A model generated the notes under the pieces. That model was not told where the DNA came from, ran no database searches, and saw only the letters and a program-made list of their open reading frames with translations. Position numbers and translations under genes: made by a program. DNA of 45,427 nt from assembly GCA_947442625.1 (NCBI GenBank), contig CANEWJ010000004.1:1-45427 (forward strand), in the 5' to 3' direction. This document shows, in pieces, positions 3,619 through 4,881 of this stretch. How positions within the stretch are numbered: the stretch's first letter is position 1; the number at the start of each line of letters is the position of its first letter. Source of the DNA: Chitinophagaceae bacterium. GTDB taxonomy: Bacteria > Bacteroidota > Bacteroidia > Chitinophagales > Chitinophagaceae.

Positions 3619-4089
3619 TTAGAATACAATTTTAACCGTTGTCGTTTTAATGTCATCAAAAAGCAGGACATGTTTGATGACTTCAAGCTTTTTCCCCTTT
3701 CCTTTTTCCTCGTCCACTTCGATGCCTTTTTCGTCTGCTGCGAGCAATTTTCCTTCAAATGCACGGCCATCTTTCATTTCCAATTCAACAACCCTGCCAA
3801 TGTTCTTGGTAAACTGTCTTCGCAACAAAAGCGGTTCGTCAATCCCTGGAGAAGAGACCTCCAGTCCAAACTCACCATCCTTGCAAATCTCCTGCTCAAC
3901 AATTTCTTTGTACAATGCCCTGTTGAGCTTGACGCATTTTTCAATGGTCACACCCTCATCACCATCCACATAAACACTGATATTGTTGATAGGGCGAACA
4001 TTAACCCTCACCAAAAAGTATTGGGGCTCATCTTCGAGCAATTTTTCGGCCAATGCCTTAACCTGAACTGTTTTTTCTTCTGTTGCCAT
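3619..4089 (-). CDS. rimP: Ribosome maturation factor RimP
   Basis: Cytoplasmic factor needed for 30S subunit maturation. The ORF track extends it to 4152, but the family-like start is the ATG at 4089 (MATEEKTVQVKALAEKLL). The upstream extension runs through a perfect palindrome and the presumed promoter, so it is almost certainly non-coding. This gives 156 aa, normal for the family. The N-terminal alpha/beta domain includes 'YFLVRVNVRP...ISVYVDGDEGVTIEKCVKLNRALYKEI' and the signature 'GLEVSSPGIDEPL'. The C-terminal SH3-like barrel follows (VVELEMKDGRAFEGKL). It is the first gene of the rimP-nusA-infB operon, 34 bp ahead of nusA. Confidence 0.94.
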   Translation of the reverse strand: MATEEKTVQVKALAEKLLEDEPQYFLVRVNVRPINNISVYVDGDEGVTIEKCVKLNRALYKEIVEQEICKDGEFGLEVSSPGIDEPLLLRRQFTKNIGRVVELEMKDGRAFEGKLLAADEKGIEVDEEKGKGKKLEVIKHVLLFDDIKTTTVKIVF

Positions 4090-4104
4090 CTTCTGTGAAA
4101 TAAA

Positions 4105-4128
4105 GAAGGGAACGGCACCGTTCCCTTC
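4105..4128 (-). promoter_or_regulatory. Perfect 24-bp palindrome in the rimP leader
   Basis: GAAGGGAACGG-CA-CCGTTCCCTTC is a perfect 11-bp inverted repeat with a 2-bp centre, 15 bp upstream of the rimP start and downstream of the predicted promoter. It would therefore be transcribed as a strong hairpin close to the ribosome-binding region, or act as a dimeric repressor site in DNA. No T-run follows it on the minus strand, so it is not an obvious intrinsic terminator. Its function is unknown; a role in controlling the operon is an inference. Confidence 0.55.
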
Positions 4129-4149
4129 ATCTGTTTCATGTTTCCGAAG

Positions 4150-4181
4150 CAAAGATAGGGGTTTGGGGGGAAATGACCAAA
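4150..4181 (-). promoter_or_regulatory. Predicted promoter of rimP-nusA-infB
   Basis: On the minus strand the sequence reads TTTG (4181-4178), 20 bp spacer, TATCTTTG (4157-4150). This fits the Bacteroidota sigma-ABfr pattern TTTG / TAnnTTTG. Transcription would start near 4142, giving a leader of about 53 nt that contains the perfect palindrome. The upstream half already lies in the G-rich repeat tract. Confidence 0.6.
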
Positions 4182-4509
4182 TTGTAGAGGTTTAGGGGTT
4201 TAGGGTGTAGGGGTGTAGAGGTTTAGGAGTGTAGGGGGGTAGAGGTTTAGGGGTGTAGGGGTTGAGGGGTTGAGGGGTTGAAGGTGTAGGGGTTTAGAGG
4301 TTTGGGGAATGAGGGGGTAGAGGTTTAGGGGTGTAGGGGGTGAAGGTGTAGAGGTTTAGGGGTGTAGAGGTTTGGGGAATGAGGGTGGAATCAATCAGTT
4401 GAGGTGATGACGAAGGTCATGTGTCGATGGTATTAATGAGATAACTTTAACGATTAATAAATTCAACCCCTAAACCCCTAAACCCTTACACCCCAAACCC
4501 CTCAACCCC
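4158..4509. repeat. G-rich minisatellite-like tract (4158-4388) facing a C-rich tract (4464-4509)
   Basis: About 230 bp of degenerate tandem units of the type GTTTAGGGGTGTAGGGG. A larger duplicated block, AGAGGTTTGGGGAATGAGGG, occurs twice about 68 bp apart. After a unique spacer of about 75 bp, the complementary pattern CAACCCCTAAACCCCTAAAC runs right up to the ATG of the next gene at 4510. The two tracts are therefore partly complementary (an inverted arrangement), and the G-rich strand has many runs of four or more G that could form quadruplexes. No gene is seen in this stretch. The unique spacer contains TAACTTTAACG, a weak candidate promoter element for the downstream gene. Confidence 0.85.
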
Positions 4510-4881
4510 ATGCCTTCCCCAGAAAACCTCAAAGACTTTTACAACGAAAACAGGAAACTGCTCACGGAATACCTTGAAACCAGGCTGCAGTTGCTCAAAC
4601 TGACTTCGGTCAGGAGTCTTTCCAGGACCCTGAGCATGCTGATCTTGATTGCGCTGATCAGTTTCATGGTACTTTTCTTCCTGCTCTTCCTTGTCATCGC
4701 TTTTTCCTGGTTCATGGCCAATTCGCTGGGAAGTGCCACACTGGGATTTCTTTGTGGAGGCGGCGTTTTTCTGCTGATCATTTTTCTTTCCGTCCTGTTC
4801 AGAAAACCATTATTTCTTAACCCCCTGATCCGCCTGTTCATTCATACATCAACACAGGAGGAAGAGGATGAAGACTACTAA
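4510..4881 (+). CDS. Phage holin-like (superfamily III type) membrane protein
   Basis: 123-aa protein resembling the 'phage holin family / Holin-X superfamily III' proteins common in Bacteroidota chromosomes next to other small envelope proteins; it is not evidence for a prophage. The N-terminus is a soluble helix (MPSPENLKDFYNENRKLLTEYLETRLQLLKL). Two transmembrane helices follow, at about residues 42-66 (LILIALISFMVLFFLLFLVI) and 77-97 (LGFLCGGGVFLLIIFLSVLF). The tail is acidic (TQEEEDEDY). The ATG lies directly after the C-rich repeat, with no Shine-Dalgarno sequence, which is odd. The next ORF overlaps its end by 14 bp. Function unknown; membrane-stress or envelope roles are only inferred for this family. 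Confidence 0.75.
   Translation: MPSPENLKDFYNENRKLLTEYLETRLQLLKLTSVRSLSRTLSMLILIALISFMVLFFLLFLVIAFSWFMANSLGSATLGFLCGGGVFLLIIFLSVLFRKPLFLNPLIRLFIHTSTQEEEDEDY

Follow-up and report, generated by a model that had tools for sequence, protein, structure and literature searches.

A dispersed G-rich minisatellite family at gene edges of a Chitinophagaceae genome: sites and polarity persist in relatives while the repeat word changes

Results

Repeat tracts between rimP and a small membrane-protein gene

The window, by which we mean the whole stretch of 45,427 nucleotides analysed, carries two facing repeat tracts between a pair of divergent genes. As the original prediction had recognised, a divergent operon lies leftward, here rimP-nusA, and a small membrane protein is encoded rightward; the match of the latter to PF07332 is weak and under the cut-off. 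The features of the locus are as follows.

3619-4089, minus strand: rimP, first gene of the rimP-nusA operon
4150-4157, minus strand: rimP-nusA operon promoter, predicted -7 box TATCTTTG
4178-4181, minus strand: rimP-nusA operon promoter, predicted -33 box TTTG, with 20 nt separating it from the -7 box
4183-4386, plus strand: G-rich arm of the minisatellite, with about 24 degenerate units of the form T[TG][TG]A[GA][GA]GG (consensus TTTAGGGG)
4295-4315 and 4365-4385, plus strand: internal duplication TAGAGGTTTGGGGAATGAGGG, 21 bp, starts 70 bp apart
4407-4420: palindrome ATGACGAAGGTCAT (ATGACnnnnGTCAT), centred at about -41 from the predicted transcription start
4442-4449, plus strand: membrane-protein gene promoter, predicted -7 box TAACTTTA (consensus TAnnTTTG), with transcription predicted to start at about 4454
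4465-4509, minus strand: C-rich arm, CCCCTAAA on the plus strand and TTTAGGGG on the minus strand, abutting the ATG
4510-4881, plus strand: small membrane protein (123 aa) with weak similarity to holin superfamily III (PF07332)

Tandem Repeats Finder gave the G-rich tract a period of about 8, alternatively 23, 31 or 70, with a top score of 197, and the C-rich tract a period of 8/15 with a score of 62. Two consecutive TTTAGGGG units, with up to three mismatches allowed, matched 19 times in the window, always within 4154-4505, against a shuffling expectation of 0.39. The two arms are 77-88% complementary over 32-57 nt. The C-rich tract ends at 4509 and the ATG occupies 4510-4512; the G-rich arm lies between the two divergent predicted promoters and is absent from both predicted transcripts. 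A minisatellite between divergent promoters, opposite a C-rich tract that reaches the start codon without a gap, had been predicted and was found, and the proposed sign of slippage or unequal exchange also held, internal duplications being typical of either. Some measurements had to be revised: the array is present but spans about 204 bp (4183-4386), not about 230 bp; the beginning of the interval first delimited from 4158 falls outside the array proper, 4158-4177 being the predicted rimP promoter spacer; and the duplicated block, described as 20 bp repeated 68 bp apart, is actually 21 bp repeated at 70 bp.

Predicted promoters and leaders of the flanking genes

Promoters and transcription starts are predictions from consensus sequences. 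The published placement of the -7 box, at -12 to -5 with the consensus TAnnTTTG (PMC6847099), puts the predicted start of the membrane-protein gene near 4454 and the centre of the palindrome near -41. In relatives, the palindrome has the core TGAnnnnnnTCA, mostly within ATGACnnnnnTCAT, and its distance to the -7 box is exactly 35 nt wherever both were recognised. A position near -41 is presumably the usual one for a Crp/Fnr-type activator, and the palindrome, read in this way, looks like a conserved putative activator site of that type. The predicted rimP promoter (-33 TTTG at 4181-4178 and -7 TATCTTTG at 4157-4150, minus strand) is likewise recognisable in relatives. The rimP leader (4090-4145) contains a hairpin, GAAGGGAACG...CGTTCCCTTC, that is conserved genus-wide, occurs as k-mers in some other Chitinophagaceae and matched no Rfam family. 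At another gene (L284, G012:C84), CCCCTAAACCCC immediately precedes a -7 box (TATCTTTG), an arrangement that the rimP promoter of relatives also has.

The start codon of the membrane-protein gene is kept in close relatives, and the distance from its -7 box to the ATG varies among relatives from about 25 to 79 nt. The last 50 nt upstream of the ATG contain 0% G here, the range over this genome and its five closest relatives (L084, L056-L059) being 0-6%, and the predicted leader has a minimum free energy of 0 kcal/mol, i.e. it is unstructured. This G-poor, unstructured composition, together with the variable distance, indicates that the C-rich arm is additional leader and not a substitute ribosome-binding site: between the predicted start and the ATG of the membrane-protein gene, it supplies 5′ leader that varies in length, lacks G and is unstructured. 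The tract had originally been thought to replace a normal ribosome-binding site, a view that has to be abandoned, since Bacteroidetes naturally lack Shine-Dalgarno sequences, initiation being tuned by mRNA structure in Flavobacterium johnsoniae (PMC6847099), and a site that Bacteroidota do not have is not replaced. In tract-free orthologues, moreover, the -7 box and the ATG are only about 25 nt apart.

A genome-wide family at gene edges

The 2.6-Mb draft genome of this apparently freshwater bacterium, in which the window is contig C4, contains 172 matches to two consecutive TTTAGGGG units with up to two mismatches, against 0 for the reversed control. The search for further tracts that had been proposed at the outset therefore shows that the tract is not a one-off: the locus is one copy of a dispersed gene-edge minisatellite family. 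The closest named matches of the host NusA include several metagenome-assembled genomes with isolate names pointing to lakes and reservoirs.

Statistics were derived from a 772-kb sample in which genes were mechanical ORFs of at least 90 aa with ATG starts only. The sample combined stretches of C1-C20, the largest contigs, with others; most of the latter (C33, C36, C37, C38, C42, C45, C73 and C106) were chosen as known carriers of matches, so that tract density is over-estimated. This choice of contigs should not affect the figures for polarity and edge distance, which are conditional on tracts. Among 46 tracts of at least two units, 37 did not overlap a called ORF although ORFs cover 91% of the sample, i.e. 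tracts are over-represented in non-coding DNA. In intergenic regions of 60-600 nt, the G-rich strand pointed outward from the nearest gene edge in 36 of 37 tracts (p 3e-10 in a binomial test that treats neighbouring arms as independent), and in 25 of the 26 tracts at stop edges. Thirty of the 37 intergenic tracts lay no more than 20 nt from a gene edge, against an expectation of 18.3, and 1 of 10,000 random placements reached the observed count; at stop edges, a short distance is to some extent inherent, since the repeat brings stop codons of its own. Adjacent tract pairs were G-first in 13/13 cases. Tracts were present in 10/31 convergent, 13/138 aligned and 2/67 divergent gaps, a mechanical count in which the gap studied here, itself divergent, was missed as such owing to a spurious opposite-strand ORF.

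TAG stops were more frequent in tract-edged genes (12/26) than in others (104/545; p 0.002), with the repeat continuing into the stop codon. Several convergent gaps (C2 36762, C42 10712, C2 29777) contain terminator-like native hairpins between the arms, so the arms do not replace terminators. The arms also failed as intrinsic terminators when inspected by eye, the C-rich arms being followed by the gene edge with no T run. The end of contig C45 (L201 16368-16479) is a near-perfect array of the 16-nt double unit TTTAGGGGTGTAGAGG that runs off the contig and is a likely cause of assembly breaks.

The repeat word differs among relatives at the same sites

With up to one mismatch, the doubled octamer TTTAGGGG matched 48 times in this genome and at most 6 times in any of 398 other genomes of the order; with up to two mismatches, congeners gave 0-8 matches against 172 here. 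Other TTTAGG octamers (TTTAGGHG) gave just 5 matches across the genus, confined to two genomes. Judged by these counts, the octamer is essentially private to this species. A 9-mer, GGTTGAAGG, matched 40-167 times in each of eight congeners (G004, G006, G009, G011, G012, G014, G027 and G030), 23 times here and 0-29 times in the remaining 32 genomes of the genus. In 642 kb sampled from G009, tracts of its own unit pointed outward in 20/22 cases (p 6e-5) and pairs were G-first in 6/6; neither convergent enrichment nor divergent scarcity of tracts was significant in this sample.

Four of six syntenic gaps that carry octamer arms here hold G-rich or C-rich arms of other words in G009. At C2 36762, for example, the same hairpin is flanked by GGTTTAGAGGTGTAGGGG here and by GGTTGAGAGAGGTTGAGGG in G009. 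At the rimP/holin locus, the G-rich arm persists in close relatives, as does a leader rich in C and A with almost no G, both differing in sequence from those here, beside conserved promoters, activator-like palindrome and ATG. Relatives thus hold repeats at the same places in a different word: the pattern is conserved, the sequence is not. An absent or unrelated tract in close relatives had been named as what would refute the prediction; the outcome was intermediate, the architecture being kept and the repeat word replaced. The relative L084, whose NusA is 100% identical to that of the host, has a rimP-side sequence matching G006, a 9-mer user, and the octamer would therefore be, most simply, a recent species-private replacement of the 9-mer.

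In the relative L085, with a NusA identity of 99%, no membrane-protein gene was found beside rimP, and the tract is for the most part absent. More distant congeners (L066, L068, L065 and L067) carry other words at this locus (GGACGCTTGGCGCTT; TATTGCCTCCTGCC; GTTGACAGTTCACAG), so that word turnover exceeds the two units studied. In tracts of congeners (L057, L058 and L286), small REP-like palindromes (GGCCTNNGGCC; TTGCCTGCCGAAGGCAGG) were seen within GTTGAAG-type repeats.

Discussion

Origin and maintenance of the tracts

The explanation that we favour, with a probability of roughly 60%, is that the repeats expand near-neutrally in spare DNA and that selection acts on their polarity. Short G-rich units would expand by slippage or unequal exchange directly after stops and before starts, staying outside promoters and terminators and in a single polarity, the G-rich strand outward from the gene. 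At the present locus, the C-rich arm would have been added as leader between the predicted start and the ATG, and the G-rich arm would serve as a spacer of the divergent promoters. Between species, the word may be swapped genome-wide, from the 9-mer GGTTGAAGG to the 8-mer GGTTTAGG, without a change of sites or polarity. At start edges, selection could maintain the polarity by disfavouring leaders that are rich in G, structured or similar to a Shine-Dalgarno sequence; a G-rich sense leader would be both of the latter. Conserved promoters, palindrome and ATG beside variable tracts make the latter look like length-variable spacer DNA, from which we infer that the tracts are near-neutral filler. 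Against this, filler by itself leaves the stop-edge polarity and the dominance of one word at dozens of loci unexplained. Simple copying of blocks between loci was not seen, as shared blocks were no longer than unit shuffles within arms give. Base skew at gene edges alone, which is present near starts in the genus, is too weak to account for the tracts.

Because polarity ignores gene direction, a Rho gate is an attractive alternative: RNA polymerase moving inward, sense or antisense, would first make C-rich, G-poor, rut-like RNA, and unless this RNA is translated, Rho would halt read-through and antisense transcription. Rho is encoded in the genome, the inward RNA is C-rich and unstructured, start and stop edges have the same polarity, and tracts are commonest between convergent genes, where read-through is antisense. 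Most gene edges have no tract, however, the convergent enrichment was not significant in G009, and a rut-like leader could also lower the expression of its own gene; on balance, we regard this model as unlikely. A dedicated process might also write, in the outward direction at gene borders, one G-rich word specific to the species and renew all copies in the genome when the word changes (9-mer to 8-mer). With the C-rich inward RNA gating invading transcription, it would in effect mark gene ends, but we take it to be a long shot.

Structural readings are weakly supported. The arms could pair across each intergenic region as a hairpin or cruciform that acts as a terminator or barrier, in keeping with their complementarity of 77-88% at the locus, a 330-nt RNA that folds better than its shuffles (z -2.9) and the G-first order of every pair. 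Arms from the same region were nonetheless not more alike than arms from different regions (0.614 vs 0.634), and co-evolution of the arms was rejected on this ground; many regions have a single arm only, and native terminator-like hairpins sit between arms. The gene's own predicted promoter separates the two arms, so that the predicted transcript at the locus holds the C-rich arm alone, at 0 kcal/mol, which speaks against the large imperfect hairpin of the original prediction and makes the pairing scheme quite improbable. G-quadruplexes had been predicted too, and could regulate neighbouring genes: motifs with runs of at least three G occur at 4250-4277 and 4491-4520 (minus strand), with one other in the window, and quadruplex formation in vitro is documented for the related Xanthomonas and Nostoc repeats (PMC4692102). 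Yet the motif is kept in just 10/46 arms and 8/25 long arms of the genome sample, because AGAGG and AAGGG units, in which A for G breaks the G runs, are common in tracts, and nothing ties the neighbouring genes together. A regulatory role of this kind is very doubtful.

Insertion of a mobile REP- or MITE-like repeat between genes would agree with the dispersed copies and with small palindromes such as CCTGCCGAAGGCAGG inside some tracts of the genus, but the copies have no element body in common and no Y1/REP-type transposase gene was found in the genome. Native promoters and terminators between the arms also mean that an arm pair is not one insertion, and we consider a mobile origin highly improbable. 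A REP/RAYT origin was rejected, PF01797 having no match in this genome (G000; controls 5/14), as was an Rfam identity, the search yielding sub-threshold chance matches only (MIR2118, 25 bits vs a gathering score of 85). An assembly or binning artefact is hardly credible: the genome is a draft of 211 contigs and C45 ends within an array, but many tracts are internal to contigs, with flanks that are syntenic in other genomes.

Comparison with known repeats

Literature searches for this repeat in Chitinophagaceae returned nothing specific. The closest precedent is the dispersed G-rich intergenic repeats GGGAATC of Xanthomonas and GGGGAYT of Nostoc described by Rehm et al. 2015 (PMC4692102), from which the strand and edge rule is already known. 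These repeats have quadruplex-competent runs with a preference for four units and lie at most 50 bp from an ORF, occupying its non-coding strand when upstream and its coding strand when downstream; they are rare between divergent ORFs, form inverted pairs, occupy the same gaps in relatives with variable length and are of unknown function (PMC4692102). The dispersed non-coding location, the outward-G edge rule, the scarcity between divergent ORFs, the inverted pairs and the retention of repeats of variable length in the corresponding gaps of relatives are common to both systems. In contrast to the heptamers, the present unit is an 8-mer (TTTAGGGG), or a 9-mer in sister species, and the host belongs to Bacteroidota; quadruplex-competent runs are not maintained (8/25 long arms match), the word differs among congeners at the same sites, and tracts enter stop codons with a frequency above expectation.

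One strand and edge rule is now found, with unrelated words, in three phyla: Xanthomonas and Nostoc in the literature and Chitinophagaceae here. Inside a single genus, different words occupy unchanged sites in unchanged polarity, so the rule is separable from the sequence, and what the agent that selects or makes the tracts acts on would seem to be gene borders and G/C polarity rather than the motif. Several words at orthologous sites of one genus amount to a natural experiment on mutational bias versus selection, for which leader structure, Rho and read-through are the candidates on the side of selection.

The STRR sequences of cyanobacteria are also dispersed short tandem intergenic repeats, made of heptamers and belonging to another phylum. 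A second, looser precedent is the TAACTGA heptamer repeats of Beggiatoaceae, Cyanobacteria and some Bacteroidetes (MacGregor 2015, PMC4679880). Like the present tracts, they are short direct repeats immediately upstream of start codons, at diverse genes including ribosomal ones and without canonical ribosome-binding sites; unlike them, they have an unrelated, non-G-rich unit and lie mainly upstream of starts. The minisatellite of Porphyromonas gingivalis is alike in being a minisatellite in a Bacteroidetes genome and differs in riding on a mobile element, a MITE (PMC4596501), no such element having been found here. Eukaryotic telomere repeats resemble the tracts in their G-rich strand only, the tracts being internal, degenerate and placed at the edges of bacterial genes.
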